Source: Planotetraspora phitsanulokensis
Lineage (GTDB): Bacteria > Actinomycetota > Actinomycetes > Streptosporangiales > Streptosporangiaceae
Direction of reading: 5' to 3'
DNA: 64,000 nt
Assembly: GCF_016863295.1 (NCBI RefSeq)
Contig: NZ_BOOP01000008.1
Coordinates: forward strand, 310,001 to 374,000
In this document: positions 1,776 through 22,973 of the stretch, piece by piece
Layout: each line of letters begins with the position of its first letter
How positions within the stretch are numbered: the first letter of the stretch is position 1
Position numbers and translations under genes: made by a program
The notes under the pieces: generated by a model
What the model saw: only the letters and a program-made list of their open reading frames with translations
Database searches by the model: none
Told to the model about the DNA's origin: nothing

Positions 1776-1784
1776 GGTCGCCAA

Positions 1785-1790
1785 ATCTTA
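1785..1790 (-). promoter_or_regulatory. -10-like hexamer of the RR-PP2C gene
   Basis: TAAGAT on the minus strand fits the TANNNT pattern seen repeatedly in this window, 9 nt before GTG 1775. It lies in the very short gap behind the LysR gene. No clear -35 is visible. Confidence 0.45.
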
Positions 1791-1798
1791 TCGTCAAT

Positions 1799-2743
1799 CT
1801 ACGAAGTCTCGATGGGCCGTTGGGGGGTGAGCGCCTCGATGCCGGGGGACAGGGTTCCCCCGGCGGCCGCCTCCACCAGGAACGACAGAAGCTCGGAGCG
1901 GAAGGCCTGAGCCGCACGCGTCGGTTCGACGTCCTTCCTGTGGGCGAGCGCGACGGTCCTGCGGAGCCCCGGGAGAAGCGGCGTTCCCACCAGCCCCGGC
2001 CGCCCGTCGAGCACCATCGAGGGGACCACGGCGACTCCCAGCCCGGCCTCGACGAACCGCAGGACCGCGTCCATCTCCCCGCCCTCCACGGCGAAGCGGG
2101 GCTCGAACCCCGCCTGCCTGCACGCGGTGAGCGTCGCCTCGCGCAGGTCGTAGCCGCGCCGGAACATCACGAGGGGGCGTCCGCGCAGTTCGTCGATCCG
2201 GATGTGCGGCCTGCGGCCGGGCTTGGCGGCCGAGGCGACGACCAGGTCCTCCCTGAGGATCTCCTCGGTGACCAGCGAGGGGTCGCTGCTCTGCAGGGGC
2301 AGGATGATGAGCGCGAGATCGAGCTGTCCCCTCGCCAGGTCGCGGACCAGGTCGCGCGAGCCGCCCTCCTCGACCTGGAGCTCGACGCCGGGATAGTCGC
2401 CGTGGAAGCGGGCCAGCACATCCGCCAGGAGTCCCGCGCACAGGGAGGGCGTCGCGCCGAGCCGTACCCGGCCCCGCCGGAGGCCGGCGAGCTCGGCCAC
2501 CTCGCGCCTGGCGGTCTCCGCGTCGGCCAGCATGCGCCGCGCCAGTGGCAGAAGGGCCTCGCCGGCGGGGGTCAGCGTGACGTTGCCCCGGGCCCGGCTG
2601 AACAGAGGCGCCCCCAGTTCGGCCTCGAGCGCCTTGATCTGCTTGCTGAGGGACGGCTGTGCGACCCGCATCCGCTCGGCGGCGTGGGTGAAGTGCCGGG
2701 TCTCGGCCACCGCGAGGAAATAGGCCAGCTGTTGGAACTGCAC
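1799..2743 (-). CDS. LysR-family transcriptional regulator, divergent from sdh
   Basis: About 314 residues, normal for LysR regulators. The N-terminal winged HTH (about residues 1-60) reads AYFLAVAETRHFTHAAERM then AQPSLSKQIKALE, the typical LysR pattern. A periplasmic-binding-protein-like effector domain follows (about 90-295). Family members nearly always begin at this HTH, so GTG 2743 is preferred over an upstream start at 2788. It is transcribed away from the succinate dehydrogenase operon. A perfect T-N11-A palindrome lies between them, so it probably controls the sdh genes and itself. The effector is unknown. Confidence 0.93.
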   Translation of the reverse strand: MQFQQLAYFLAVAETRHFTHAAERMRVAQPSLSKQIKALEAELGAPLFSRARGNVTLTPAGEALLPLARRMLADAETARREVAELAGLRRGRVRLGATPSLCAGLLADVLARFHGDYPGVELQVEEGGSRDLVRDLARGQLDLALIILPLQSSDPSLVTEEILREDLVVASAAKPGRRPHIRIDELRGRPLVMFRRGYDLREATLTACRQAGFEPRFAVEGGEMDAVLRFVEAGLGVAVVPSMVLDGRPGLVGTPLLPGLRRTVALAHRKDVEPTRAAQAFRSELLSFLVEAAAGGTLSPGIEALTPQRPIETS

Positions 2744-2833
2744 GTGTCGAAAGCCTACGACCTGTCCACTCTGTGAGATTGGTCGCACCCGGGGGGAGCC
2801 GGGAAGGCCGCCCGACCGCGCCGGGCACGTCGA

Positions 2834-2848
2834 ATAGCCCAGGGCTAT
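2834..2848. promoter_or_regulatory. LysR-type operator palindrome (T-N11-A)
   Basis: ATAGCCCAGGGCTAT is a perfect 7-1-7 palindrome containing the T-N11-A core of LysR sites (2835-2847). It is centred about 67 nt upstream of the predicted sdhC transcription start, the usual place for a LysR activation site. Confidence 0.65.
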
Positions 2849-2869
2849 CGGAACGAGGCCCGCGATGAC

Positions 2870-2900
2870 TTGGACGCCCGAACCGCGTTCTGCCTAGCGT
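2870..2900 (+). promoter_or_regulatory. Promoter of the sdhCAB operon
   Basis: The -10 hexamer TAGCGT is at 2895-2900 and a weak -35 TTGGAC at 2870-2875. Seven nt separate the -10 from GTG 2908, so the transcript would begin at or next to the start codon (leaderless). Confidence 0.6.
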
Positions 2901-2907
2901 GGCCGAC

Positions 2908-3635
2908 GTGACAGCCACAGTTGACCACAGCGTGGACCGCGCGCCCGCCGCCCCCGTGCGCAGGCGGCCTCGCGGCTTCTTCGGCTCATCGAACGGCAAG
3001 AAGGCGGTCATGGCCGTCACGGGCGCCGTCCTCGTGCTCTTCCTGGTCGGCCACATGCTCGGGAACCTCAAGGCGTTCCTGGGCGCCGACTCGTTCAACC
3101 ACTACGCGGAATGGCTGCGGACGGTGGGGTCGCCCGCGCTGCCCAACCGCACCCTGCTGACCATCGCCGAGATCGGCCTGGTGGTCGCGGTGGTGCTGCA
3201 CATGTGGTCGGCGGTGTCGCTGGCCAGGCGGGCCGCCAAGGCGAGGCCCGTCAAGTACGCCGCCAGGGTGAAGCCGCAGGCGGGGGGATACGCCACGCGG
3301 ACCATGCGCTACGGCGGCGTCATCATCCTGCTGTTCGTGATCTGGCACCTGCTCGACCTCACCTTCGGGGTCGTGAACCCCAAGGGCGGGCAGGCCACGC
3401 CGTACGACCGGCTGGTGGCCGGCTTCGCGCCGGACCGCTGGTGGGTCACGGTCTTCTACCTGGTCGCCATGGCGATGATCGGCCTCCACCTGCGGCACGG
3501 CCTGTGGAGCGCACTCCAGACGCTCGGCCTGGCGGGCCGCTACAAGGCGCTCAAGGCGGGTTCCACCGCGGTCTCCGCGGTGCTCGTCGTCGGATTCATC
3601 GCCATACCCCTAGCCGTGATGATCGGAGTGGTGAA

Positions 3636-3639
<4 letters not shown>
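2908..3639 (+). CDS. sdhC: Succinate dehydrogenase cytochrome b558 subunit
   Basis: Membrane anchor of complex II that binds heme and quinone. About 243 residues with five hydrophobic segments, the first near residues 30-55 ([18 protein letters not shown]). His residues in HMLGNL, HMWSAV, HLLDLT and HLRHGL are candidate heme ligands of this single-chain anchor type, which works without a separate SdhD. The start GTG 2908 is chosen for its leaderless promoter spacing; GTG 2899 is in frame but lies across the -10. The stop overlaps the sdhA start as ATGA, showing a coupled operon. Confidence 0.93.
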
Positions 3640-5563
<1,924 letters not shown>

Positions 5564-5567
<4 letters not shown>

Positions 5568-6340
5568 GCGAGCGCGCCACAAGCACGGGGAAGGCGGGCA
5601 TGAACCTGACCCTCAAGATCTGGCGCCAGAACGGCTCGTCGGATCGCGGACGGATGGTGACCTACGAGGTCAAGGACGTGTCGCCGGACATGTCCTTCCT
5701 GGAGATGCTCGACGTCCTCAACGAGCGGCTGACTCTCGAGGGCGACGACCCCGTCGCCTTCGACCACGACTGCCGCGAGGGCATCTGCGGCATGTGCGGC
5801 ATGGTCATCAACGGCGTCGCCCACGGCGAGCAGCGCGCGACGACGACCTGTCAGCTGCACATGCGGCACTTCGAGGACGGTGCCACCGTCACGATCGAGC
5901 CCTGGCGCGCGGCGCCGTTCCCCGTGGTCAAGGACCTCGTGGTGGACAGGTCGGCCTTCGACCGGATCATCCAGGCGGGCGGGTTCATCTCGGTCCCCGC
6001 GGGGTCCGCGCCGGACGCGCACGCCGTGCCGGTGCCCAAGGACGACGCGGACGCGGCGTTCGACGCGGCAACCTGCATCGGGTGCGGCGCCTGCGTGGCC
6101 GCCTGCCCGAACGGCTCGGCCTCGCTGTTCACCGCCGCCAAGATCACCCACCTGGGCCTGCTCCCGCAGGGGCAGCCCGAGCGGGCGTCCCGGGCCAAGG
6201 CCATGGTCGAGCAGATGGACGCCGAGGGCTTCGGCGGCTGCACGAACACCGGCGAGTGCACCGCGGTGTGCCCCAAGGGCATCCCGCTGGACGCCATCGC
6301 CCGCATGAACGCCGACTATCTCAAGACCGCGTCGAAGTAG
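5564..6340 (+). CDS. sdhB: Succinate dehydrogenase iron-sulfur subunit
   Basis: Electron-transfer subunit between SdhA and the membrane anchor. The N-terminal ferredoxin domain has the [2Fe-2S] ligands in [13 protein letters not shown] plus a Cys in TTCQLHM. The C-terminal domain has [15 protein letters not shown] and [15 protein letters not shown] for the [4Fe-4S] and [3Fe-4S] centres. GTG 5564 overlaps the sdhA stop (GTGA) and has GGAG 6 nt upstream. ATG 5600 ([10 protein letters not shown]), preceded by GGGGAAGG, matches the usual family N-terminus and is an equally possible start. Confidence 0.96.
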
Positions 6341-6362
6341 GTCGCGGAACCACGCCGTACAG

Positions 6363-6398
6363 ATGCGGCGGACGTCGCCCCACGCGCGTCCGCCGCAT
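6363..6398 (+). terminator. Terminator-like hairpin after sdhB
   Basis: A perfect 12-bp inverted repeat, ATGCGGCGGACG (6363-6374) and CGTCCGCCGCAT (6387-6398), with a 12-nt loop. It lies between the convergent sdhB and ClpN-domain genes and could serve both. There is no U-tract, as is usual in such GC-rich genomes. Confidence 0.7.
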
Positions 6399-6473
6399 CG
6401 GCGTTCTCCCCGTCCGCCGCCGGGCCGGGTCGCACCGGCGCACGCCGCCGGGTGCCCCCGGCTCATCGGGCGC

Positions 6474-7046
6474 CTACTGGCGTGAGGCGCCCACCTCGGC
6501 GCGCATCTCCTCACGAAGGGTCGGAAGGTCGATGTCCGCGTCGGAGAGGATCCTGACGCCGAGGCCCTCTCCTTCGCGGAGCAGGCCGAGCAGGATGTGG
6601 CCGTCGCGGATGTTGCGGCTCTTGAGCGCGAGGGCCTCGCGCAGGGACAGTTCGAGGACCTTCTTGGCGCGTGGCGTGAAGGGGATGCTGCGCCCGCTGA
6701 CGAGGCCGCCTCGCCGGTCCCTGCTCGGATGGCGGTCGAGGGCCCCCGGCCCGAAGGCGGCCTCGACCTTCTCACGCACCGCCGTCAGGTCGATGCCGAT
6801 GGCCTCGAGGGCGTCCGCGTCGATGTCGCCGACCGGCAGGGTGCCGAGAACGCGCACCACCGCCGCCGACGCCTGCGCGTGGTCGAGGCCGTGCCGGTTC
6901 ACGAGCCGTGCCGCCAGGGTGTCCGGCTGCTCCAGGATGCCGAGAAGAAGGTGCTCGGTGCCGACGTGGTTGTGCCGGAGGGTCCGGGCGTTCCCCTGGG
7001 CGAGCTTGACCACCTGCCGGGCCTCGTCGGTGAATCGTTCGAACAT
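6474..7046 (-). CDS. Stand-alone Clp N-domain protein (no AAA module)
   Basis: The 190-residue protein has two copies of the ClpA/ClpC N-terminal repeat: residues 1-75 (MFERFTDEARQVVKLAQ, HNHVGTEHLLLGILEQ) and about 115-185 (FTPRAKKVLELSLREA, IRDGHILLGLL). In ClpC this domain binds adaptors and substrates. Here it is not followed by an ATPase, so the protein may act as an adaptor or decoy for ClpC; that is inference. It starts 3 nt after the stop of the small HTH gene, with which it forms an operon. Such HTH/ClpN pairs recur in actinobacteria. Confidence 0.92.
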   Translation of the reverse strand: MFERFTDEARQVVKLAQGNARTLRHNHVGTEHLLLGILEQPDTLAARLVNRHGLDHAQASAAVVRVLGTLPVGDIDADALEAIGIDLTAVREKVEAAFGPGALDRHPSRDRRGGLVSGRSIPFTPRAKKVLELSLREALALKSRNIRDGHILLGLLREGEGLGVRILSDADIDLPTLREEMRAEVGASRQ

Positions 7047-7382: not shown

Positions 7383-9083
7383 ATGATTTCCTTGCCTGTC
7401 GCCGATCCCGGCACTCCAGACACCCGCGGGCCCCTCCGGTACCTGTGGTGGGTGGCGCGTGTCCAGAAGTGGCCGATGCTCGTCGGCATCTCCATGGCCA
7501 TCCTGTGGTGGCTCGCGCAGGCGCTCGTCCCCGCCGCCCTGGGCCGGGCGATCGACGCGCTGGCGGGAAGCCGTACGGGCGATCTCGTGGAGTGGTCGGC
7601 CGCGATCCTCGGCCTGGGCGCGATCCAGGCGGTCACGGGGGTCCTGCGGCACCGGTTCGCGGTGCTGACCTGGCTCGGCGCGGCCTACCGCACGGTGCAG
7701 GTGACCGCACGGCAGGCGACCCGGCTGGGCGCGACGTTGCCGAAACGCCTGTCGACCGGCGAGGTCGTCAGCGTCGGCAACTCCGACATCGCCCACATCG
7801 GCAACGCGATGGACATCCTCCTGCGCGGCACCGGAGCGCTCGTCGCGATCGGCACGGTGACGGTGATCCTGCTGACCACGTCGCCTCCGCTGGGACTGAT
7901 CGTGCTCATCGGTGTCCCGCTGATGGCCGCGGCCGTGGGCCCTCTGCTCAGACCGCTGCACAAGAGGCAGCACGCCCAGCGCGACCTGCAGGGAGACCTC
8001 GCGACCCGCGCCTCCGACATCGTCGGCGGCCTGAGGGTGCTGCGGGGGATCGGCGGCGAGGCGCTCTTCTCCGCCCGCTACCGCGAGGAGTCGCAGGGGG
8101 TGCGGCGGGCGGGCGTCCGGGTGGCCTCGGTCGAGTCGGCGCTGGAGGGCGCCCAGATCCTGCTGCCCGGCGTGCTCATCGCGGCCGTCACCTGGCTGGG
8201 CGCCCAATTCGCGCTGGACGGGCGGATCAGTCCCGGCCAGCTCGTCGCGTTCTACGCCTACGCCGCGTTCCTGATCGCCCCCCTGCGGACGGTCACGGAG
8301 GCCGCCGACAAGCTGACCAAGGGACACGTGGCCGCACGCCGGGTGTGCCGGATCCTGTCGCTGGAACCCGAGATCCGGGACGGGACGGGCACCCTGCCCG
8401 CCGAGGCCGTGTCGGACGTCCTGCTGGACGGCGAGTCCGGCGTCGCCGTACGGCCGGGCAGGCTGACCGCGCTCGTCGCGGCGGTTCCCGAGGAGGCGGC
8501 GGCGATCACGGACCGGCTGGGACGCTACACGCCTGGCGAGGTGACCCTCGGCGGCGTCTCCCTGGCCGAGTTGCCGGTCGGCGAGGTCAGGCGGCACATC
8601 CTGGTCGCCGACAACGCGGCCCGGCTGTTCACCGGGCGCCTGCGCGACGAGCTCGACGTGCGGGGCACGGCGACCGACGACGACGTACGGCTTGCGCTGC
8701 ACGCCGCCTGCGCCGACGACATCGTCGAGGCCCTGCCCGACGGCCTCGACGCCCGCGTCGCCGAGGCGGGCCGGGAGTTCTCCGGCGGGCAGCAGCAGCG
8801 GCTGCGGCTCGCCCGGGCGCTGACCGCCGACCCGGACGTCCTGGTCCTGGTCGAGCCGACCAGCGCGGTCGACGCCCACACGGAGGCCCGCATCGCGGAC
8901 CGGCTCGGCAAGGCCCGCGCGGGCCGCACCACGCTGGTCTGCACCACCAGCCCGCTCGTCCTCGACCGCGCGGATCTGGTCGTGTTCGTCGAGGACGGCA
9001 AGGTCAGGGCCGAGGGAAGCCATCGGGAACTGCTGGACGCGGAGCCCGGCTATTCGGCCGTAGTCACGAGAGGGGAGGGCTGA
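7383..9083 (+). CDS. ABC exporter half-transporter with degenerate Walker motifs
   Basis: About 566 residues: a six-helix type-IV exporter domain (about 1-320) followed by a nucleotide-binding domain. The NBD has no Walker A: the position reads AAVPEEAAAITDRLG, without the GxxGxGKS pattern. Walker B has Val in place of Asp (VLVLVEPTSAVD), and the switch His position reads VCTTSPL. The signature FSGGQQQRLRLARAL is intact. With the next gene, which has the opposite set of defects, it would form a heterodimer with one complete ATP site. ATG 7377 is an alternative start. The substrate is unknown. Confidence 0.92.
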   Translation: MISLPVADPGTPDTRGPLRYLWWVARVQKWPMLVGISMAILWWLAQALVPAALGRAIDALAGSRTGDLVEWSAAILGLGAIQAVTGVLRHRFAVLTWLGAAYRTVQVTARQATRLGATLPKRLSTGEVVSVGNSDIAHIGNAMDILLRGTGALVAIGTVTVILLTTSPPLGLIVLIGVPLMAAAVGPLLRPLHKRQHAQRDLQGDLATRASDIVGGLRVLRGIGGEALFSARYREESQGVRRAGVRVASVESALEGAQILLPGVLIAAVTWLGAQFALDGRISPGQLVAFYAYAAFLIAPLRTVTEAADKLTKGHVAARRVCRILSLEPEIRDGTGTLPAEAVSDVLLDGESGVAVRPGRLTALVAAVPEEAAAITDRLGRYTPGEVTLGGVSLAELPVGEVRRHILVADNAARLFTGRLRDELDVRGTATDDDVRLALHAACADDIVEALPDGLDARVAEAGREFSGGQQQRLRLARALTADPDVLVLVEPTSAVDAHTEARIADRLGKARAGRTTLVCTTSPLVLDRADLVVFVEDGKVRAEGSHRELLDAEPGYSAVVTRGEG

Positions 9084-9085
9084 CC

Positions 9086-10834
9086 ATGGCAGGCCGGATT
9101 CTGCCGGTCGCCGACCGCGCGCAGGTGCGTGCCTACGCGCGGCGGCTGACCCTGAAGTATCCGAAGGAACTCGGGCTGGCGCTGTCCCTGCACGCCCTCG
9201 CGGCGATCGCGGGCCTCGCCTCTCCGCGGCTGCTGGGAGAGCTGGTCCAGGCGGTCGCCGACGGTTCGAACGACGTCGACGTGAACACGGTCGCACTGGC
9301 CATCGCGGGCTTCGTGGTCGTGCAGGCGGTGCTGGTCAGGTTCGCGGTCTACGCCTCGTCGCGGCTGGGCGAGAAGGTCCTGGCCGAGCTCCGTGAGGAC
9401 TTCGTGGACCAGGTGCTCGCCCTGCCGCTGTCGACGGTGGAGCGGGCGGGCTCCGGCGACCTCATCACGCGTACGTCGCGCGACGTCGACGCCCTGTCCC
9501 GGTCCGTGCGGCACGCCGTGCCCGAGACCCTGATCGCGGTCGTCACGTGCCTGTTCGCCGTGGGCGCGCTGCTGCTCGTCGGCCCGATCATGGCGGTGCC
9601 CTGCCTGGTGGCGGTGCCCCTGATCTGGATCTCCACGAGGTGGTACCTGAAGCGGGCCACGGACGGCTACCTCCGGGAGAACGCGGCCTACGCGGACATG
9701 ACCGAGGGGCTGGCCGAGACCGTCGAGGGCGCGCGGACCGTCGAGGCCCTGGGCATCGAGAGGCGCCGCCACCGGCGGACGGACGGCGACATCGCCAAGT
9801 CGTTCGCGGCGGAGCGGTACACCCTCGGGCTGCGGATGATCTGGTTCCCGACCGTCGAGATCGGCTACGTGATCCCCGTCGTGGCGACCCTGCTGCTGGG
9901 AGGGCTGTTCCACTCCGAGAGCTGGGTCTCGCTCGCCCAGGTCACCGCGGCCACGCTGTACGTGCAGCAGCTGATCGACCCGCTCGACCGGGTGTTGTCG
10001 TGGATGGACGAGCTCCAGGTCGGCGGCGCGTCGATGGCCCGGCTGCTCGGCGTGGTCAACGTGCCCGACGACCGCGTCGCCGGCGACGAGCGTCCGCGCG
10101 GCGAGGAGCTGGAGGCGACCGGCGTGACCTACGCCTACCGCGAGGGTCACGACGTGCTGCACGGCATCGACCTCGACGTCCGCGCGGGGGAACGGCTCGC
10201 CATGGTGGGCCCGTCAGGCGCGGGCAAGTCCACGCTGGGACGCCTGCTCGCGGGCATCCACGGCCCGCGGACCGGCTCGGTCACCGTCGGCGGCGTCGAG
10301 CTCGTCGAGCTGCCGCTGGACGAGCTGCGCGGCCACGTGGCGCTCGTCACGCAGGAGCACCACGTGTTCCGCGGGACTCTGCGCGACAACGTGCTGATCG
10401 GGCGGCCGGACGCGACGGACGACGAGGTGCGCAGGGCGCTTGAGGCCGTGGACGCCTGGGAGTGGGCGCAGACCCTCGACAAAGGCCTGGACACGGTCGT
10501 CGGCTCGGGCGGCGAGGCCGTCTCCCCGGCCCACGCGCAGCAGCTGGCGCTGGCCAGGCTCGTCCTGGCCGACCCGCACACGCTGGTGCTCGACGAGGCC
10601 ACGTCGCTGATCGACCCGCGAGAGGCCAGGCATCTGGAGCGCTCGCTGGCCGCGGTCCTGGAGGGCCGCACGGTGATCGCGATCGCCCACCGGCTCTATA
10701 CCGCCCACGACGCCGACCGCGTGGCGGTCGTGGAGGACGGGCGTGTGAGCGAGCTCGGCTCGCACGACGAGCTCGTCGCAGCCGGCGGAGCGTACGCCGC
10801 GCTGTGGGACAGCTGGCACGGCAAGGGCAGGTGA
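9086..10834 (+). CDS. ABC exporter half-transporter with degenerate signature motif
   Basis: 582 residues with an N-terminal six-helix transmembrane domain (about 1-325) and an NBD. Walker A (GPSGAGKSTLGRLLAG), Walker B (TLVLDEATS) and the switch His (AIAHRL) are intact. The LSGGQ signature is replaced by VSPAHAQQLALARL. Its Walker A/B can only pair productively with the FSGGQ of the upstream partner, so the two genes must work together. The start ATG 9086 follows the upstream stop by 2 nt and AGGGGAGGG serves as ribosome-binding site. The exported compound is unknown. Confidence 0.93.
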   Translation: MAGRILPVADRAQVRAYARRLTLKYPKELGLALSLHALAAIAGLASPRLLGELVQAVADGSNDVDVNTVALAIAGFVVVQAVLVRFAVYASSRLGEKVLAELREDFVDQVLALPLSTVERAGSGDLITRTSRDVDALSRSVRHAVPETLIAVVTCLFAVGALLLVGPIMAVPCLVAVPLIWISTRWYLKRATDGYLRENAAYADMTEGLAETVEGARTVEALGIERRRHRRTDGDIAKSFAAERYTLGLRMIWFPTVEIGYVIPVVATLLLGGLFHSESWVSLAQVTAATLYVQQLIDPLDRVLSWMDELQVGGASMARLLGVVNVPDDRVAGDERPRGEELEATGVTYAYREGHDVLHGIDLDVRAGERLAMVGPSGAGKSTLGRLLAGIHGPRTGSVTVGGVELVELPLDELRGHVALVTQEHHVFRGTLRDNVLIGRPDATDDEVRRALEAVDAWEWAQTLDKGLDTVVGSGGEAVSPAHAQQLALARLVLADPHTLVLDEATSLIDPREARHLERSLAAVLEGRTVIAIAHRLYTAHDADRVAVVEDGRVSELGSHDELVAAGGAYAALWDSWHGKGR

Positions 10835-10842
10835 GAACGGCC

Positions 10843-10884
10843 GAGGGCGGCCGGCCCCGCGACATCGCGGGACCGGCCGCCCTC
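10843..10884. terminator. Long bidirectional terminator hairpin
   Basis: GAGGGCGGCCGG (10843-10854) pairs with CCGGCCGCCCTC (10873-10884). Inside it, CCCGCGA pairs with TCGCGGG around a 2-nt loop. It sits between the convergent ABC exporter and S9 peptidase genes. Confidence 0.8.
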
Positions 10885-14822: not shown

Positions 14823-15285
14823 CCTGTTCGACGCCCACGGCGACGCGCTGAGCAGCTGCGTCAGCCAGTTCCGCTCGTACGGCTCACGCACCCGGTTCCT
14901 CGGGCGGATCGAGACGGTCCGCTGTCTGGAGGACAACGCGCTCGTGCGACAGGTGCTCGGCACACCCGGGGACGGGCGGGTCCTCGTCGTGGACGGCGGC
15001 GGATCGTTGCGGACGGCCCTGCTGGGCGACCTCCTCGCGGCGTCCGCCGTACGGCACGGGTGGTCGGGTGTGATCGTCAACGGCGCGGTCAGGGACACGG
15101 CGGCGCTGGCCGGGCTCGACCTCGGCGTCAAGGCCCTGGGATCCAACCCGCGCAGGAGCGCGAAGGAGGGACGGGGCGAGGTCGGCGTCCCGGTGACCTT
15201 CGGTGAGGTGACCTTCGCCCCGGGCCAGTGGCTCTACAGCGATGAGGACGGGGTGGTCGTGAGCCCTCAGAGGCTCCAGGACTGA
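14803..15285 (+). CDS. RraA-like protein / 4-hydroxy-4-methyl-2-oxoglutarate aldolase family
   Basis: 160 residues, the full length of the RraA/HMG-aldolase family. Visible family motifs are DLFDAHGD near the N-terminus, [35 protein letters not shown] with the conserved Arg-Asp, and [19 protein letters not shown]. The product either cleaves 4-hydroxy-4-methyl-2-oxoglutarate or oxaloacetate, or acts as an RNase E regulator. Sequence alone does not separate these. The start overlaps the upstream membrane gene, suggesting coupling. The 3' end overlaps the convergent CysRS-like gene by 19 nt. Confidence 0.9.
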
Positions 15286-16484
15286 CCCGTCGGGGTGTCG
15301 GCGACCTTCACCCCGAGCTCGGCCAGATCGTCGCGGAGCCGGTCGGAGGCGGCCCAGTCGCCCTCCTCCTGCGCGCGTTCACGTGCCCGCAGCAGTTCTC
15401 CCGCGCCGGGCGGGAGCGTCGGGACCTTCCCGATGTCGATCGACAGGTCGAGGCCGAGCACGTGGTCGAAGTGGAGGAACGTCTCGAACCGGGAGCCCGG
15501 CGCCACGCCGCCGTCGTCCTCGAGGTCGTGCAGGATGCGCAGCGCCCGTGGCATGTCGAGGTCGTCGTCGAGCGCCCGCTGGACCGCCTCCGCCCGGCCG
15601 GCGTCGATGGGACGGCTCGGCGACTCGGCCCAGTCGGCCACCCGCCGCCGCCAGCGCCGGAGGGTCCGGGCCGCAGCCCTGAGCGACTCCCCGGTGAGGT
15701 CGGCCTGTTCCCGGTGGTGCCGCCCCATGAGCGCGAGCCGTACGGCCAGCGGGTCGAGGCCCTCCGCCGTGACGTCGGACAGGAGCACCGGGTCGGGGCC
15801 GTTTGCCGGCCTGCCCTCGAAGAGCAGGGGCCCGCCGTGGAGCCAGGGCGCGGTCGTCCCGCGGCCTGCGGCCGCGCCCGACTCGGCGCGCACTCCCTCC
15901 TGATGGCGGTCGGCGCCGCCGGCGTAGAGGTCGACGCGCCCGCCGAGGAACCGCGCGGACAGAGCCGAACAGCCCACATGAGGACCCGGGGCGCCGGGAC
16001 CCCAGGGAGAGTCCCAGGCGGGCACCGCGGCCGTCCACAGCGGCCACCGGGGGTCCGCGTCGAAGTACACCGACCCGTCGGGCGCGGGACGGGCCCGGCC
16101 CAGCTCGATCAGCCGGGTGATCAGTTCGATCACCGTGTCGAGGTTCTCCGACTCCCGCGGGGTGTGCTCCGGAGTGCGGATGTTCAGGGCGAGCGCGTCG
16201 GCGCGGAAGGCGTCCTCGTACAGCGGCGGGGGCGGCTTGCCGTCGGAGGCGCTCGCCGCCTCCCCATGGCCGCTCACGTCCGCGACGCTCCGGCAGGCGA
16301 CCACGCGCGGTCCCCGCCGCTCCGCCACCCGCCTGACCAGGTCGGCGAGCAGGAGCGAGCGGAGGTCTCCGAGATGGGCGTACCGGTGGGCGGGGGGCCC
16401 GCAGACGTACATCCGCAGGACCCGCGAACCCGTGGCGACGACCGGCTCCACCTGCCCGGCGCGCGTGTCGTAGACCCGGAGCAT
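15267..16484 (-). CDS. Catalytically degenerate cysteinyl-tRNA synthetase-like protein
   Basis: 405 residues with the full CysRS layout. The first zinc Cys is kept in YVCGP, and the second in [20 protein letters not shown]. The last 35 residues match the usual CysRS end ([20 protein letters not shown]). The catalytic signatures have decayed. HIGH is AHLGD, KMSKS is replaced by GPDPVLLSD, and the zinc-binding HHENE stretch is reduced to [10 protein letters not shown]. It is therefore unlikely to charge tRNA and is not a normal MshC either. It is the last gene of the cassette beginning at 22091, 10 nt behind the sigma-like gene, and also has its own leaderless-type promoter. Confidence 0.85.
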
Positions 16485-16491
16485 GCTCCTG

Positions 16492-16497
16492 AGCCTA
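16492..16497 (-). promoter_or_regulatory. -10 hexamer of the CysRS-like gene sharing the upstream stop codon
   Basis: On the minus strand TAGGCT (16497-16492) begins with the stop TAG of the upstream gene and is followed by 7 nt and ATG 16484. Confidence 0.5.
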
Positions 16498-18339
16498 GGC
16501 GAGGAAACCGAGGATGTCCCGGTCGCCCCGTTCCCTCAGCCGCTCGAGCACCTCTTCGCGGGTCGCGCCCTCGGGGAGGCCGATGCGGGCGCCGATGAGC
16601 CGGACGCCCTCCGCGTCGGACGCCACGGGGGCCGTGTAGCCGATGAGGTGCAGGGCCCGGTTGAGCGACGGCAGCCCGGCCGCCGACGCCGGGAGGAAGC
16701 GGGTCAGCAGTTCCCCGCCGTCGGAGACCGTGATGAAGACGTGGTCGCCGTCCGAGGCGTTGTAGTCGACCAGCACCGGCCTGATGGAGCCCATCGTCGG
16801 CTGGTTGTGCCAGCTGATCACCACGTCGCCCGCCGGCGTGGAGGCCGTCAGCTGCCCTCCGGGCGCCATCCCCAGGTGGGCGGCGAAACCGGTCGGCAGC
16901 GGGGACCCCGACCCACGCAGGTGCTCGGCGTTGATGTCGACGCGGTGCCACCAGCGGCCGTCGCGGCTGCGGAAGGACCGCCGGGTCATCGAGACGTCCT
17001 TGCGCGGGTGGTACGGCTCGCCCTGCTCCGGCCCGGCGACCCGGATCCAGCCGCGCTGGGTGCGCTCGAATCCCGGCCCGCCCGCGTACGCGCGGACCGA
17101 GCTCTCGCTCACCTCGTACCGCGACGTCAGGTTGCCGACGATCGTGTTGACCGACGCCTCGCCGCCCGCCCGCTCGATCTCCCTGACGATCATCTCGCGG
17201 ATGCCGAGGTACTCCTCGCCGCCGCCCCAGCGCCGCAGGCCGTACTTGTTGCGGTCGAGGCGGATGAATCGCTCGTCGGAGGCGAGCTGGTTGCGCACGC
17301 CGACGACGCTGTGGTCCTCGCCGATCCGCTCCTGGATCTCCTCGGGGCTCAGGGGGGTGCCGGCGACGGCCAGCACCGCCTCGGCCTTGTCGTTGACGCC
17401 GCGCGGCCACGGGACCACGTGCCCGTCCAGCACCCGCAGCTGGGGGACGGAGACGATCCACCGCTCGGCCAGGTCCTCGCGCACGCCGAGCTGCGAGACG
17501 AGGGAGACGGCCTCGTCCAGCTTCCGCGGGCCGTCCGCGAACAGTTGCCGGGTCTTCTCGCGCAGCTCCTCGGCGCCTCCGGCGACCAGCCAGCCGTCCG
17601 CCTGCTCGTAGCCCGTGAGCAGGGTGCGCACGAAGCGCCACGCGGGGATCGCGAGGGTGGCCAGCTCCGTCCGGTGCCACGGTGCGGCGACGGCGAGCTC
17701 GTCCGCGGGCACGGCGGACCCGAGCCGGGTGTGCAGCCAGGACAGATGGGCGTTGAGGGGGGCGGCCTCCGGCCCGGCCAGCCAGCTCAGGACGTGCTCG
17801 CGGAGGTCGCGCTCGATCTGCCTGATCCGCTCCCGGGTCACGGAGAACCTCTGGGCCAGCTCGTCGAGCGTGGCCCGCTGCGCGGTCTGGGCGGAGTTCT
17901 GCGAGGCGTCGAAGTACAGCCGGTCCCTCGCGATGGCCCGCTGCCGGTCGTCGAGACGGGCGAAGAGCCGGTCGATGATCTCCGGCAGCGCGGCCGCCGA
18001 GGGATCGTCCGCCGGGTCGGTCGCCAGCAGCTTGTCGAGCACTCCTGCGAACAGCCTGTGCACGCCCTCGCGGGAGCCCGGCGTCTGGAGGCAGTCCGCG
18101 GGGTCGGTGAATCTGAGCAGCGGCAGGATGTCGCCGAGGATCAGATGCTCCCAGCAGGCGCTGGTGAGGTCGGTCAGGCGGGACGCGACCTGCGCGGTTC
18201 CCACCAGGGCGCAGGCCCGGTCGAGCGGAAGCGACTGCCACCAGGCGTCGGGAAGGCCGGGATCGCTTGCGATCGGCTCCACCTGGCTCGGGGCCGTCCA
18301 GCGCAGGGGGGGCACGATGTCGCTCAGGCTCAGGTTCAA
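16495..18339 (-). CDS. Cassette protein B: sigma-region-4-like HTH plus winged-helix domains
   Basis: 614 residues, unrecognised as a whole. An N-terminal domain (1-120) is shared with the paralogue at 20454. At about 157-184 TLDELAQRFSVTRERIRQIE is a close match to sigma-70 region 4.2. At about 328-374 LSPEEIQERIGE...KYGLRRWG resembles a HARE-HTH/RNAP-delta winged helix, and a further HTH-like segment follows at about 378-435. The C-terminal 165 residues (DVSMTRRSFRSRDGRWW to the end) are again shared with the paralogue. TTG 18339 aligns exactly with the paralogue's start; TTG 18357 is the alternative. It lies 49 nt behind the helicase gene. Confidence 0.85.
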   Translation of the reverse strand: MNLSLSDIVPPLRWTAPSQVEPIASDPGLPDAWWQSLPLDRACALVGTAQVASRLTDLTSACWEHLILGDILPLLRFTDPADCLQTPGSREGVHRLFAGVLDKLLATDPADDPSAAALPEIIDRLFARLDDRQRAIARDRLYFDASQNSAQTAQRATLDELAQRFSVTRERIRQIERDLREHVLSWLAGPEAAPLNAHLSWLHTRLGSAVPADELAVAAPWHRTELATLAIPAWRFVRTLLTGYEQADGWLVAGGAEELREKTRQLFADGPRKLDEAVSLVSQLGVREDLAERWIVSVPQLRVLDGHVVPWPRGVNDKAEAVLAVAGTPLSPEEIQERIGEDHSVVGVRNQLASDERFIRLDRNKYGLRRWGGGEEYLGIREMIVREIERAGGEASVNTIVGNLTSRYEVSESSVRAYAGGPGFERTQRGWIRVAGPEQGEPYHPRKDVSMTRRSFRSRDGRWWHRVDINAEHLRGSGSPLPTGFAAHLGMAPGGQLTASTPAGDVVISWHNQPTMGSIRPVLVDYNASDGDHVFITVSDGGELLTRFLPASAAGLPSLNRALHLIGYTAPVASDAEGVRLIGARIGLPEGATREEVLERLRERGDRDILGFLA

Positions 18340-18388
18340 TGCAGGTCCAACCGGCAAGGGGAATATATCCGCAGTTCAGGGTAGGGGA

Positions 18389-20449
18389 TCAACCAGGCAG
18401 GAAGGGACTTGCCCGGCCGGAGTAGGACACGTACAGCAGCTCGCCGGCTCGGGTGCACGCCACGTAGAGCAACCCCCGTTCTCGTTGCAGATCGTGGGCC
18501 CGGGCGGTGGGGTCCTCCGAGGCCGGGGTCAGCGCGTCGGGCGCCGGCACGATTCCGTCAGCCACGCCTATCACGGCCACCCTGCGAAATTCCAGCCCTT
18601 TCATCCCGTGCAGCATCGTGACTTTCACTGTTATCCCCGCGTCACGCAGAGCCGTCCGGGCGGCCTTGACCAGCTCGGCGGTGCGAGCGGCGACGGCGAT
18701 GTCATGCGTCGGCACGCCTTCCTCCATCCACTCGGACACATGCGCGATCAGACCGGCCATCTCGGCCTCGGGGCTGACGTACTCCAGGACCGTCGGGCGC
18801 GTCCCGTTCCGGACGGCGCGCAAGCCGTACAGGTCGGCGACCCCCTCGACGAGACCGTCGGCGGGCCCGCCTCCCCGGAGCCGGACGCCCCAGGAAAGGA
18901 TCTCCCGGGAAAGACGATAGGAGATCTTCAGATGAAACCGGCGGGCGGGGATGCCGACGTTCGCCAGCGCGACCCGGGTGTCGAACATGCGCTGGTGGGG
19001 GTCGCCCACGATGAACAGGTCGTCCGGCGCGACGGGGACGGCCGCCCGCAGCAGCCGCCACTGCGCCGGGTGCAGGTCCTGCGCCTCGTCCACCACGACG
19101 TGCCGGTACGGCTCCCGCCCCGGCGCCTGCTCGCCGAGGAGGTCGCCCGTCGACTCCCCGAGCAGCCCCGCCGCCTCGGCGGCGAGCTGGAGGAGCGTGC
19201 GGCGCCCCGACTCCTTCAGCCGGTCGACGACGTGCCCGACCGCCTCCCACACCTCGGCCCGGCTCTGCGGGCCCAGCTCCACGCTCCGGCCCGGGCGGCC
19301 TGCGGCCTGGTACTCCGCCAGCGTGCGGAGGTTCTGGGCGAGGATGACCTGCTCCCACTCCCGCAGCAGGAACGCGGCCCCGAACCGGCTGCCCGCCGCC
19401 TCCTCCCAGAGGGTCGCCAGGTCGCCGGCGCCGACGATGGCGGGTGGCCGCCCCTCCGCCTCAGCGACGATTCGGTGGGCGAGCCGGTCGACGTTGCCGA
19501 CCTCGACCCGCTTGCGCACGACCTCGTCGTCGACGATCAGGTCGAGCCGTGAGGACAGCTCGGTGGCCAGGCCCTGGGAGAACGTCACGAGCATGATGGG
19601 ACCGGCGCCGGCGCGGGCGAGGTGGGCGGCCCGGTGCAGGGCGATGATCGTCTTCCCGGTGCCCGCGCCCCCCGTCACCAGCACCGGCCCGTCGTACCCG
19701 GCCCAGTTCGCGTACGTGTGCTGCGGGGGATGCAGAAAGGTGCACCAGTGCGGCAGGGCCATGATCCGGTCGAGCTCGTCGAGATCGGCCGCGAACGCGG
19801 CGAGGTGGGGGCTTCGCCGCAGAGCGGCCGCCAGGTCGCCGGTGTCGACGACGCCGGGCTCCGAGGAGCGGCAGGCGTCGAGTTCGCGCCAGGCGTCCGT
19901 GAGGGTGCCGCCGCGGGCGAGCGCCGCCAGAGGGGCGAACTGGCTCTCCGGAAGCAGGGATTCGAGCGCCTCGAAGTGCGACTCGGTGGTCATCAGCCTC
20001 AGGAGCCGCAACATCTGCTGATCGACGCCGATCTCCAGCAGGTCCGTGTCGCAGAACCCGGCGAACAACCGCTGCTCCGACCGCTGGGCCGACCTTCGCA
20101 ACGCCGGCTCGACGCGATCCAGCGCCTCCGCGTCCCAGGTCTCGATCACTCCGATGGCGGGGTTGACCCCGAACCGGTGACGCTGTGCGTACGCCCAGGC
20201 CGCCGCGTCCGGGAGCACCGTGACCAGCCAATAGGTGTCGCCCTGCCGTACGGCCACGGCCCGGTGACGGTCGGCCAGGCGAAGCGTGGTCACCCGGTGG
20301 TCGCGGCCGTTGCGCACCCGCTCCGGATGCGGCGCCGAAGAGGAGTTGCCCAGGAACCCGCGGACCGCGACCACGGCCTCCCGTCGGACCGGCCGGGCCA
20401 GGGTGCTGAGCTCCCTGGTGAACTCCGGGGAGATCGCGAGCCGGGGCAT
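18389..20449 (-). CDS. SF1 (UvrD/Rep-like) helicase with RelE/ParE-like N-terminus
   Basis: 686 residues. Residues 1-105 look like a RelE/ParE-fold domain (ISPEFTRELSTLARPVRR, VTTLRLADRHRAVAVRQG, DTYWLVTVL), as found in a group of actinobacterial UvrD-like proteins. Helicase motifs are complete: I GGAGTGKT (260-267), II VVVDEAQD (451-458), III VGDPHQRMFD (481-490), IV ISYRLS (509-514), V TMLHGMKGLEF (611-621) and VI LLYVACTRA (660-668). No nuclease domain follows motif VI. It starts 4 nt after the stop of paralogue A, so the two are one transcript. Confidence 0.93.
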   Translation of the reverse strand: MPRLAISPEFTRELSTLARPVRREAVVAVRGFLGNSSSAPHPERVRNGRDHRVTTLRLADRHRAVAVRQGDTYWLVTVLPDAAAWAYAQRHRFGVNPAIGVIETWDAEALDRVEPALRRSAQRSEQRLFAGFCDTDLLEIGVDQQMLRLLRLMTTESHFEALESLLPESQFAPLAALARGGTLTDAWRELDACRSSEPGVVDTGDLAAALRRSPHLAAFAADLDELDRIMALPHWCTFLHPPQHTYANWAGYDGPVLVTGGAGTGKTIIALHRAAHLARAGAGPIMLVTFSQGLATELSSRLDLIVDDEVVRKRVEVGNVDRLAHRIVAEAEGRPPAIVGAGDLATLWEEAAGSRFGAAFLLREWEQVILAQNLRTLAEYQAAGRPGRSVELGPQSRAEVWEAVGHVVDRLKESGRRTLLQLAAEAAGLLGESTGDLLGEQAPGREPYRHVVVDEAQDLHPAQWRLLRAAVPVAPDDLFIVGDPHQRMFDTRVALANVGIPARRFHLKISYRLSREILSWGVRLRGGGPADGLVEGVADLYGLRAVRNGTRPTVLEYVSPEAEMAGLIAHVSEWMEEGVPTHDIAVAARTAELVKAARTALRDAGITVKVTMLHGMKGLEFRRVAVIGVADGIVPAPDALTPASEDPTARAHDLQRERGLLYVACTRAGELLYVSYSGRASPFLPG

Positions 20450-20453
20450 CGCC

Positions 20454-22091
20454 CTAGTCCAGTAAGGAGATGAGGTCGCGGTCGCCTCGTTCGCGGAGCC
20501 TGGTGATGAGCTCGGGCCGTCCGGCCGGCCCGGAGAGGCCGATCCTCGTCGCGATCACGCGCACGGCCTGGTCGAAGGTGCCGCCGGGGGCCGTGTACCC
20601 GACAAGGCGCAACGCCTGGGAGGTCGGGTCGCCGCCGTTGGCCGCCGCGAGGTGCCGCACCCGCAACATGCCCTCGTCCGACATGGTCAGGAAGACGTGG
20701 CTGCCCTCCTTGGCGGCGACCTCGGTGAGGATCCGCTGCAGTGATCCGAAGCCGGGGCGCGATATCCAGGTGAGCTCCACGTCTCCCGCCGCGCTCCGCG
20801 CGGGCCGGTTCTCGCCCGGCGTGAGACCGAGATAGGCGGCGAAACCGGTCGGCATCGGCACCTCGGCGCCCCGCAGATGCTCGTCGGTGATGTCCACCCG
20901 CAGCCACCAGCGGCCGTCAGGCTGGCGGAAGCACCTTCGCGTGAGGGACACGTCCTTGAGCTGGCCCACCGGCTTGTCGGCCGCGGAGCCGTTCATGGCG
21001 TGGCGCGCGCCGTTGCTCTTGCTGCTGCTCTGGATGCGCAGCTGCGGGACGTTCTCCAGCCATTCCTTGGCCACATCGGGGTGGATGCCGAGGGAGGAGA
21101 CCAGTTCCAGCGCCCGGGCCACGGTCGGCGGGCGCTCGGCGTTGACGATCAGGCCACGCGTGCGCTCGTGCAGATCGGCGAGGTCTCCCGCCACCAGCCA
21201 GTCGCCGGACACCTGGTAACCGGGCAGGGTCGCCACCACGAAGTGCCAGGCCGGGACGTCGAGCGAGCGCAGCTCGTGCTCGTGCCACTCGGCCGCCGTG
21301 ATCAGCCGGCTCTTCGGCGCGGCCACCCCCAACTCGTCGGCGAGCCAGGCCAGGTGCGCCTTGTACGGCAGGGCCTCCGGCTTGCCGAGCCATTCGGCCA
21401 GCCAGACGCGCAGAGTGGTCTCGAGCGCCTGGATGACGTCGGTGGAGACGGCGAGGAGCTTGGCCAGCTCCTCGATGGCGGACGGCGCGTCCGTGAAGAC
21501 CCGGTTCTGCGCGACCATCCAGGTCCTGTCGTCCATGTCGGAGAACGCCGCGTCGATCAGGGCGGGGAAGTCGACCTCGCTCTGCGGCTGCCGCGGCGCC
21601 GGCACCTCGGGCACCGACTTGAGGTGCCTGGCCGGGCCGTCGGCCGAGTGGGCCCTGGTGGGGGCCTGCTCGGCGTCCTCGCCCAGGGACGGCGCCAGCC
21701 GGGTGAACACGGCGGTGAACAGGGCGGTCAGCACGGGCCGGGCCTTGATGAAGGGCTGGTCGGTGAGCTCGCGGCCGGACAGGGTGAGCAGGCCGGGCCA
21801 GGACCCCGCGCGGTCGAGCGCGATCGCGACCTGAGGATCGTCGGCCTCGTCGGGGTCGAGCACGTAGAGCGCCGGCAGGACGTCGCCCACCGCGGCGGCC
21901 GGCCAGTGCTCCAGCGCCAGATCGGTGATCAGCTCGCCGAGGCCCTCGGGGTCCATGACACCGAGCACCCGCTCCATGGGCAGGCTGCGCCACCAGGCGT
22001 CCGGCAGATCGCCCTGCTCGCTCAGGATTCCGATGCGGGAGGCGTCACTCCAGCGCAGCGGTGGCACGAGGTCACTCAGGCAGAAGTTCAT
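20454..22091 (-). CDS. Cassette protein A: paralogue of B lacking the winged-helix insert
   Basis: 545 residues. Its N-terminus (CLSDLVPPLRW, LPDAWWRSLPMERV) and C-terminal 165 residues (DVSLTRRCFRQPDGRWW, GFAAYLGLTPGE, RLRERGDRDLISLLD) clearly match protein B. At about 204-232 the HTH is eroded (IEELAKLLAVSTDVIQALE), without the RERIRQIE recognition helix. The roughly 100-residue winged-helix segment of B is absent, replaced by a short Ser/Asn-rich linker. ATG 22091 has GGGGAAAG upstream and aligns with B; a start at 22133 is possible. It is the first gene of the cassette. Confidence 0.85.
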   Translation of the reverse strand: MNFCLSDLVPPLRWSDASRIGILSEQGDLPDAWWRSLPMERVLGVMDPEGLGELITDLALEHWPAAAVGDVLPALYVLDPDEADDPQVAIALDRAGSWPGLLTLSGRELTDQPFIKARPVLTALFTAVFTRLAPSLGEDAEQAPTRAHSADGPARHLKSVPEVPAPRQPQSEVDFPALIDAAFSDMDDRTWMVAQNRVFTDAPSAIEELAKLLAVSTDVIQALETTLRVWLAEWLGKPEALPYKAHLAWLADELGVAAPKSRLITAAEWHEHELRSLDVPAWHFVVATLPGYQVSGDWLVAGDLADLHERTRGLIVNAERPPTVARALELVSSLGIHPDVAKEWLENVPQLRIQSSSKSNGARHAMNGSAADKPVGQLKDVSLTRRCFRQPDGRWWLRVDITDEHLRGAEVPMPTGFAAYLGLTPGENRPARSAAGDVELTWISRPGFGSLQRILTEVAAKEGSHVFLTMSDEGMLRVRHLAAANGGDPTSQALRLVGYTAPGGTFDQAVRVIATRIGLSGPAGRPELITRLRERGDRDLISLLD

Positions 22092-22115
22092 GCTTTCCCC
22101 ATCACTCCGTCGGAC

Positions 22116-22129
22116 CAGACCATAGTCTG
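22116..22129. promoter_or_regulatory. Palindrome over a -10-like site upstream of the cassette
   Basis: CAGACCATAGTCTG has perfect 5-bp arms around 4 nt. Read on the minus strand it contains TATGGT (22124-22119), a plausible -10 for the cassette starting at 22091. A dimeric repressor bound here would block that promoter. Confidence 0.45.
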
Positions 22130-22157
22130 ACAAATCCCCATTCGCAGGGGCACTGCG

Positions 22158-22973
22158 TCAGGGACGAACGGCGGCGAACCGCAGCCGGACGTAGTCGGCC
22201 ATCCACCCGGACTCCCGGCGAAGGGCGGGGGCGGCGAGCTCGTTGACCCGCAGCAGCAGCGGCTCCACGGTCGCGGGCGGCACGCCGTCCAGCAGGGAGC
22301 CCGCGAACAGCCGCACCCAGTCGGCGGCGCCGTTCGGGCATTCGTCGAGCGGCGTCGGGCGATCGAAGTATTCCAGGATCCGGACGGTGAAGCCCCCCTG
22401 CTCCAGACGCCGGGCATACTCGGCCGGGCTGGGAAAATACCAGGGAAGCTCGGGCTCGCGCAGGCCGTACTCCCGCCAGGCGGTCAGCATCGCGGACGTG
22501 AGCGCCGCGCAGTTGCCCGCGCCGCCGAGCTCCGCCACGAACCGTCCGCCAGGGCGCAGGGCCATGCGCACACACGCGATCACCGCCTCGGGGTCACGGC
22601 TCATCCAGTGCAGCGCGGCGTTGGAGAACACCGCGTCGTACGGCTGGGCCACCGTGAAATCGTGACCGTCGCCGACGATGAAGTCCAGACCGGGGTGCTG
22701 GGCGATGGCCGTCTCGATCATCGAGTGGGAGCCGTCGATCCCGAGGACCTCGGCGCCGCGGGCGGCGATGTCGGCCGTGAGCACGCCGGTCCCGCAGCCG
22801 AGGTCGAGCACCCGCTCGCCCGGCCGGGGATCGAGCAGCTCCACGAGCGGCGCTCCGTGCGCGGAGACGTAGCCGAAGGAGCTGTCATACGCACGAGCGT
22901 TCCATCTCGTGAGATTGGGGGTTTCGTACCGCAAGATCAGCTCGCATTCTGAGTCATTCAGATAGCGACACAC
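22158..22973 (-). CDS. SAM-dependent methyltransferase (trans-aconitate methyltransferase-like)
   Basis: 271-residue class I methyltransferase. Motif I is VLDLGCGTGVLTADIA (near residue 55), with the acidic residue after beta-2 in EVLGIDGS, DAVFSNAALHWM at motif II, and LRPGGRFVAELGG after it. Among relatives the pattern SNAALHWM is typical of trans-aconitate 2-methyltransferase-like proteins. The actual acceptor is unknown. It ends 66 nt before the start of the helicase cassette on the same strand. The GTG start is tentative; the conserved part begins at about residue 22 (RWNARAYDSSFGYV). Confidence 0.9.
   Translation of the reverse strand: MCRYLNDSECELILRYETPNLTRWNARAYDSSFGYVSAHGAPLVELLDPRPGERVLDLGCGTGVLTADIAARGAEVLGIDGSHSMIETAIAQHPGLDFIVGDGHDFTVAQPYDAVFSNAALHWMSRDPEAVIACVRMALRPGGRFVAELGGAGNCAALTSAMLTAWREYGLREPELPWYFPSPAEYARRLEQGGFTVRILEYFDRPTPLDECPNGAADWVRLFAGSLLDGVPPATVEPLLLRVNELAAPALRRESGWMADYVRLRFAAVRP

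Follow-up and report, generated by a model that had tools for sequence, protein, structure and literature searches.

A 64,000-nt window of the Planotetraspora phitsanulokensis genome contains four consecutive minus-strand genes, which in 5'→3' order encode a protein A, a helicase (Hel), a protein B and a cysteinyl-tRNA-synthetase (CysRS)-like protein. Their lengths and their spacers of 4, 49 and 10 nt agreed with an earlier, sequence-only reading of this DNA. Gene A (20454..22091) encodes 545 amino acids (aa), with end domains common to B, a degenerate sigma-4-like middle and sites of proline/alanine-rich inserts. Hel (18389..20449) has 686 aa and combines a ParE/RelE-like N-terminal domain (about residues 1-110) with a superfamily 1A (SF1A) motor of the UvrD type, in which motifs I, II, III and VI are kept. 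Gene B (16495..18339) encodes 614 aa from a TTG start that aligns with the methionine of orthologues; its longest reading extends to 18357 (620 aa). The N-terminal domain common to A is followed in B by a sigma region 4, a sub-threshold HARE-like helix-turn-helix (HTH), a second, weakly matching winged-helix-like stretch and the C-terminal domain common to A. The CysRS-like gene (15267..16484) encodes a degenerate protein of 405 aa, a frequent downstream neighbour that we judged to lie outside the unit. Upstream of A, on the same strand, is a 24-nt cis element (22113..22136), GATTTGTCAGACTATGGTCTGGTC, which contains the inverted repeat CAGAC-TATG-GTCTG at 22116-22129 and is separated from the A start codon by 21 nt.

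The arrangement of the first three genes was strictly conserved. We compared the best 80 of 121 relatives of B from a scan of GTDB genomes, which by their record titles belonged to Streptosporangiaceae genera. In all 80 loci, A lay directly 5' of Hel and Hel directly 5' of B on the same strand, an order far above chance. The A-Hel spacer measured 2-16 nt. For the Hel-B spacer, 29-53 nt separated Hel from the position aligned with the first residue of the 620-aa reading; the likely start is up to 18 nt further on. No internal stops were seen in A, Hel or B at these loci; a contig end interrupted A in three of them, leaving 77 complete copies. The ratio of nonsynonymous to synonymous substitution rates (dN/dS), calculated pairwise by the Nei-Gojobori method with our own script, was 0.00-0.19 for B, 0.02-0.26 for Hel and 0.21-0.56 for A in 10 pairs, indicating purifying selection. 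B was more constrained than A, and also than Hel, in at least 8 of the 10 pairs each. A evolved fastest of the three, probably within its inserts. These ratios indicate that all three genes, like the methyltransferase gene upstream of A, are maintained as proteins.

The distribution of B was followed in 120 genomes drawn separately from the same GTDB family, in which presence was judged by eye. An orthologue with at least 67% identity was found in 48 genomes, and one more held a relative of 40% identity. A Hel match lay beside B in 47 of the 48 (by eye), being partial or split in G003, G044, G069 and G100; in G068 the Hel match lay on the contig carrying the B N-terminus. B was present in 54/54 Nonomuraea genomes, with a single match in each, and in 5/5 genomes drawn from the window's own genus; genera other than Nonomuraea were sampled less deeply. 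In a draw from the phylum, the B profile matched 5 of 295 other genomes. Eighteen plasmid records matched B, 17 of them at less than 60% identity, and two single-protein queries of IMG/VR viral contigs, sensitive to close relatives only, confirmed no B relative. The pattern raised in the sequence-only reading as contrary to a common unit, each gene alone in unrelated contexts in all relatives, was not observed for A, Hel and B, and lone relatives do exist in the form of A-like genes (A2, below), B-like genes and the B gene of genome G034.

The four-gene cassette originally proposed was reduced to three members. A cysteinyl-tRNA synthetase has HIGH- and KMSKS-type motifs and zinc ligands; in the window's CysRS-like protein, described as degenerate, the patterns of HIGH, KMSKS and FPHHE type are not intact. 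In 77 of the 80 loci a CysRS-like match was found 3' of B in the same orientation. The distance from B to its start was 10-204 nt in 63 of them, and in the remaining 14 the first tblastn match came 0.8-2 kb after B. No match was present nearby in the other three loci, one of which (L071) lies no more than about 1 kb from the end of its contig. Further loci from family genomes had the gene on the other strand (L056) or lacked it (L052, L058), and L040 carries A and the CysRS-like gene without Hel and B. Regular expressions run over the matched stretch found all three motif patterns in 37 of the 77 copies; at least one was missing in 40, and 26 had none. The decayed copies span several genera and mostly keep an open frame, and the intact copies in L053 and L057 pass the cysS model TIGR00435. 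In nine pairwise comparisons the dN/dS of this gene was 0.14-0.60, and in five of these it exceeded the values of all other compared genes. The genome contains three other CysRS-family genes, so this one looks dispensable. Motif loss in 40/77 copies, together with displacement, location on the other strand or absence, led us to reject the gene as a fourth component; the most plausible view is that of a surplus synthetase gene in decay downstream of the unit.

A and B align with each other over the N- and C-terminal domains that they had been said to share, and over the sigma-like stretch as well. B matched the Pfam family Sigma70_r4 at 27.9 bits (cut-off 24.1), and a B profile built from 12 members matched sigma region 4 in the PDB at E 4e-11. 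Among the best 60 of 81 PDB profile matches, the strongest stretch was profile positions 79-206, aligned with the region-4 end of sigma chains. No sigma region 2, the part concerned with the polymerase clamp and -10 melting, was found in B by Pfam or by the PDB profile; promoter opening in the manner of a sigma factor is therefore not anticipated for B. The recognition helix of sigma region 4.2, [TS]RER[IV]RQ, was present in 80/80 B and 0/80 A proteins (three of the latter incomplete), and in 0/11 lone A-like proteins. The strict pattern occurred in 11 of 20 further B-family proteins, one of which is the orthologue in L156. Hence the suggestion that B alone keeps this helix and a winged helix stood in its first part. 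For the second part, HARE-HTH scored 22.3 bits in B against a cut-off of 25.9, with 8 of 12 B-family members matching at E ≤0.1, and the further winged-helix-like stretch gave weak matches. Judged by these profiles, B carries DNA-binding-type modules, namely a sigma 4.2 helix, a HARE-like HTH and a weaker winged-helix-like stretch.

Pfam gave no match for A, in which region 4 was barely traceable (E 0.013). It has the same end domains as B, lacks the reading helix and contains low-complexity inserts, and its length ranged from 513 to 1130 aa among the 77 complete relatives. In a tree of the C-terminal domain with 27 rows, which omits L155 and includes long branches, B formed one clade (95/95) and the lone A2 proteins another (100/100); A, B and A2 grouped with moderate support (89/93), and A was not resolved as a clade. 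By its sequence, A is a paralogue of B in which both end domains are retained, the reading helix has disappeared and flexible inserts are present. For the shared C-terminal domain, the best PDB profile match was at E 0.22, and no Pfam family exceeded its cut-off. A B3-like pseudobarrel was considered for this domain and was unsupported, given that PDB value and weak MazE-type matches in 4 of 28 sequences. Nine more genomes of the GTDB family, from other genera (L043-L051), carried the lone A-like gene A2 (689-818 aa), with no Hel or B match alongside; the sizes of its neighbouring genes, and size alone, resemble a suf operon.

Hel had been described as an SF1 helicase with a RelE/ParE-like N-terminus, and both halves of the description were borne out. 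The motor matched the Pfam UvrD family at 72 bits (cut-off 23). In the alignment of the 80 loci, G[GA]xGTGK[TS] and GDPHQR were found in every copy and ACTR in 78; motif II followed D-E/D-x-x-D in all 80, with D-D in three. Tested as a UvrD-type SF1A helicase, Hel thus has motifs I, II, III and VI intact. Strict patterns for the four motifs gave the lower counts of 75, 72, 80 and 77 of 80 because they disallow variants. Motif II reads DDAQD, with Glu changed to Asp, in the Nonomuraea loci L112, L116 and L118. In 28 loci within L112-L147, all but one titled Nonomuraea, Hel is 601-615 aa long, about 70-80 aa shorter. Models of related motors scored 78.6 bits for PcrA, 57.4 bits for HelD (cut-off 419) and 56 bits for HelR (cut-off 750), and GajB models matched the Hel motor at 92.9 bits at best.

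The N-terminus of Hel aligned with those of 20 paralogues (21 N-termini in all), and the paralogue in L193 matched PF05016 at 24.8 bits (cut-off 23). The N-terminus of the window's Hel had no Pfam match itself, a PF05016 search of its own genome gave none at Hel, and the RelE-like domain, used against the PDB as a single query and as a profile, reached E 0.67 at best. Its ParE/RelE-like character is therefore assigned by family. An HD motif (LPHDDAYAY type) is present in 15 of the 20 aligned paralogues; the 12 commonest spellings among the Hel orthologues, covering 54 of the 80 copies, have no histidine at this site (LPDAEAWSY type). Motifs and family alignment together show Hel as a UvrD-type motor that is intact and bears a nose derived from RelE. 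The idea that DNA-binding-type proteins flank a helicase is supported by these assignments.

The cis element followed the operon closely. Its family form, between A and the methyltransferase gene upstream, is GATTTG[CT]CAGACTATGGTCTGGTC. Within 220 nt upstream of A (77 loci), it occurred with at most 5 mismatches in 24 positions in 75 loci, with 7 in one and 10 in one; the minimum among 1545 control windows from the same loci was 9 mismatches. At 14 of the 24 positions, constancy reached at least 97% among the 76 loci with the better matches. A whole-genome search of 10 genomes at up to 3 mismatches placed a copy (0 or 1 mismatch) at the operon in all seven genomes that have the operon and found no element in the three without it. 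G031 had a second match at 3 mismatches, and a reversed control pattern gave five matches in all at the same threshold. In the 120-genome draw, searched at up to 1 mismatch, the element was found in 41 genomes as a single copy each and the control pattern in none. All 41 fell among the 48 genomes with a B orthologue, against 0/72 of the others, and 38 of the copies lay within 5 kb 5' of Hel on the same contig and strand (by eye). The copies in G038 and G094 were on a contig other than that of Hel, the G038 contig also carrying a fragment of A; the match in G039 was off the locus, and the operon copy there seems to carry an indel. At the operon, G062 had 10 mismatches and G012 had 6. In G034 the best match within 260 nt upstream of B had 13 mismatches, and the best in the 19-kb locus had 8. 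No match better than 7 mismatches was found at lone A-like and other B-like loci.

The distance from the element to A varied between 19 and 113 nt and included 19, 21, 22, 23, 63, 64 and 65 nt. As these spacings put the element in different phases relative to A, a coding explanation by an upstream start of that gene, in frame with it, was rejected. An RNA element found no support, with a fold z-score of -0.01 against shuffles and no Rfam match at E ≤1. No standard sigma-70 promoter was found at A; the TATGGT inside the element, which the inverted repeat covers in the way expected of an operator, could be a -10 box. Since the element occurs once per genome and is inherited with one operon, it is best explained as being read by a product of that operon, for which B is the candidate. 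We infer from this pattern that the element is an operator or promoter.

The genes 5' of A encode a class I S-adenosylmethionine methyltransferase (22158..22973, minus strand), with the cis element lying between it and A, and a solute-binding protein. Both were syntenic in 77/77 loci that reach them. The methyltransferase gene, which is probably a transcription unit separate from A, had a dN/dS of 0.05-0.15 (10 pairs), the lowest of the compared genes in six of the 10. Locus L156 of genome G034 (C13:100001-119000; B at 8960-10843) provides a natural experiment, as it keeps both upstream genes and has no A, Hel or cis element. The window also contains mshB, rraA, fdxA and dapC, housekeeping genes that each exceed their NCBIfam cut-offs. 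No defence gene was present among the identified neighbours (the methyltransferase, the solute-binding protein and these four), to which a PADLOC scan was not applied. The retention of A-Hel-B across related genera, beside housekeeping genes, marks the unit as a stable chromosomal feature and not a patchy island gene.

We propose that A-Hel-B is one operon encoding a DNA-bound helicase complex that may regulate its own expression, a reading that we hold to be evenly balanced between right and wrong. In such a complex, B would read DNA, and A and B would grip the motor by the end domains that they have in common. Hel could thereby be loaded at promoter-like or otherwise marked DNA, where it might strip or remodel bound material, or the complex might watch for foreign DNA; foreign DNA, promoters and damaged DNA are all candidate targets. 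The inverted repeat before A would serve as the operator through which the operon product, most likely B, controls its own expression. The families of its parts have members in phage-defence loci as well, and we read the unit as built from such defence-type parts and here fixed as a single-copy function of its carrier genera; the fixed distribution suggests a core function, and the kin suggest a link with defence. Several observations weigh against this proposal. A B orthologue was absent from 72 of the 120 genomes of the same GTDB family, and G034 has B (80% identity, open frame) without A or Hel alongside. Adjacency alone is no proof of a complex, because the methyltransferase and solute-binding protein genes are equally syntenic. 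The Glu to Asp change in motif II may weaken the motor in the three Nonomuraea loci. Finally, a sigma 4.2 helix is expected to prefer a -35-like TTGAC, and this sequence was not enriched upstream of A (4/78; shuffled mean 5.7).

The link with defence comes from relatives of both B and Hel. In L041 (B-like gene at 8518-10779), L165 (8662-10926), L166 (8870-10789) and L155 (7404-9632), pbeA is immediately preceded by a B-like gene, with PbeA and PbeC recognized by PADLOC or by similarity to L041, where the neighbours matched PbeA at E 5e-246 and PbeC at 3.5e-181. The assignment in L042 (8927-10855) relies on gene sizes and a methyltransferase match alone. In L035 (7326-9524), a B-like gene is near a pbeA identified by Pfam domains alone, with about 320 nt between the called open reading frames (ORFs). 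The B-like gene and pbeA overlap by 4 nt in L041, L042, L166 and L155. A stretch resembling the RNA polymerase alpha C-terminal domain was also seen in L041 and L035. The component list of the PbeABCD/CxC ABC-ATPase-DndE system in the relevant portion of PMC10853773 names no sigma-like protein, and the passages of PMC6459918 on phosphorothioate system components name no such B-like protein. A Microbacterium plasmid (L037, NZ_CP015812.1, 578-10093) carries, one after another, a UvrD gene spread over two ORFs (with PDDEXK in the second of them), a B-like gene, an unknown 523-aa ORF, a DUF4011 gene and a further helicase. No such defence neighbour was recognized at the other B-like genes, of which few neighbours were scanned.

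Paralogues of Hel with the RelE-UvrD architecture were similarly placed. Twenty of their loci were fetched, and neighbours were tested in eight, hand-picked for large ORFs and without a control set; all eight had matches to defence-type models. These were SngA (L174), DrmD (L178), GmrSD (L180, L186), Old/GajA-type (L181), a Ser/Thr kinase of PD-T4-6 type (L186, L190), DrmA and DrmB (L188) and DruE/MkoA-type (L193); the kinase and ATPase matches are weak evidence, and some neighbours were on the other strand. L188 belongs to the window's own genome (G000:C8:45501-57000). There, within 2-6788, a RelE-UvrD helicase follows a drmB-like ORF by 63 nt on the same strand, and a helicase so placed after drmA-drmB is a possible extra DISARM component.

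These relatives bear on the suggestion, already made in the sequence-only reading, that the locus is a defence system. In its full form, the unit would be a true anti-phage system fixed in these genera, with B and A recognizing invading DNA, Hel unwinding or blocking it, and the RelE-like nose or another partner acting as effector. It would account for B-like genes heading Pbe loci, for one such gene beside UvrD/PDDEXK and DUF4011 on a plasmid, and for the defence-type neighbours of the RelE-UvrD paralogues. However, accessory defence systems are usually patchy, and the presence of B in every Nonomuraea genome and the housekeeping neighbours oppose a standard system of this kind. In addition, no nuclease was recognized in the unit, the identified neighbours include no defence gene, and the paralogue neighbourhoods were chosen by hand. 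The kinship with defence loci stands, and we consider an anti-phage system proper a doubtful explanation.

Sigma region 4 contacts the beta-flap and the -35 box, so a role at RNA polymerase was also weighed. B might dock by its sigma-4 domain on the flap or a -35 box, and Hel might remove or recycle stalled polymerase in the manner of HelD or HelR. The intact 4.2 helix in all 80 B proteins and the HelD and HelR matches of the motor (57 and 56 bits) fit this scheme. Those matches are weak, far under the cut-offs of 419 and 750, and PcrA scored higher; the HelD arms were not searched separately, and no sigma region 2 was found in B. We find such a role improbable. That B is an ordinary regulator of one or a few targets with Hel merely co-transcribed seems very improbable: it would suit the private operator-like element with one copy per matching genome, the stronger constraint on B than on A and Hel, its persistence without both in G034 and the existence of lone B-like and A2 genes, but Hel stands between A and B with intact motor motifs in all 80 loci, and in G034 the element is missing upstream of B.

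The DNA-bound helicase complex can be extended into a bolder proposal, which we think unlikely to hold in full. B might be a sigma-4 reading head freed from transcription initiation that parks a RelE-UvrD helicase on promoter-like DNA. The helicase would then be promoter-licensed and serve immunity or genome surveillance as a machine fixed in genera of the Streptosporangiaceae, and the cousins of B might be an unlisted reader subunit of the actinobacterial Pbe phosphorothioate defence. If our main reading, the self-regulated helicase complex, is right, a defence-type module composed of a RelE-UvrD helicase and a sigma-4/HARE-like reader has become fixed as a single-copy gene set in a group of soil actinobacteria, and its control sequence is confined to that operon in almost every sampled genome carrying it. 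The B-like gene before pbeA also suggests a missing component in the actinobacterial phosphorothioate defence. The 24-nt element would be a ready bait for the DNA-binding product of the operon, and deletion of the operon could separate immunity from roles in transcription or repair.

The sequence-only reading did not recognize this combination from any described system, and no account of A-Hel-B was among the papers listed in our literature searches, although a mention in the 2012 HARE-HTH survey cannot be excluded. Compared with the sigma-70 family, B has region 4 with its recognition helix, but no region 2 was found. MzaA of the MZA system, a long defence protein, shares a sigma-like region 4 with B; the match is limited to that region and reached 33.9 bits against a cut-off of 800, with no other Mza models among the PADLOC matches listed. 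HelD and HelR share the SF1 motor with Hel, and a possible polymerase link exists through sigma region 4, although Hel falls far below their curated cut-offs. In contrast to type II toxin-antitoxin systems of the RelE/ParE family, which involve a free toxin and antitoxin, the RelE-like domain of Hel is fused to a helicase and flanked by A and B. Among the matches listed for the four cassette proteins (25 of 41 for Hel), there was no GajA of Gabija and neither PbeA nor PbeC. No Drm protein of DISARM was among the listed matches of these proteins either, and drmA and drmB stand beside a paralogue elsewhere in the genome. PbeABCD resembles the unit in the B-like gene 5' of pbeA at Pbe loci and differs in using another helicase superfamily. 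The closest counterparts of Hel are the RelE/ParE-UvrD fusion helicases of actinobacteria, which have the same full-length architecture and include the drmA-drmB neighbour in the same genome (39% identity). Most of these paralogues carry the HD motif, whereas the Hel orthologues are without it in the listed spellings and have A and B as constant partners.

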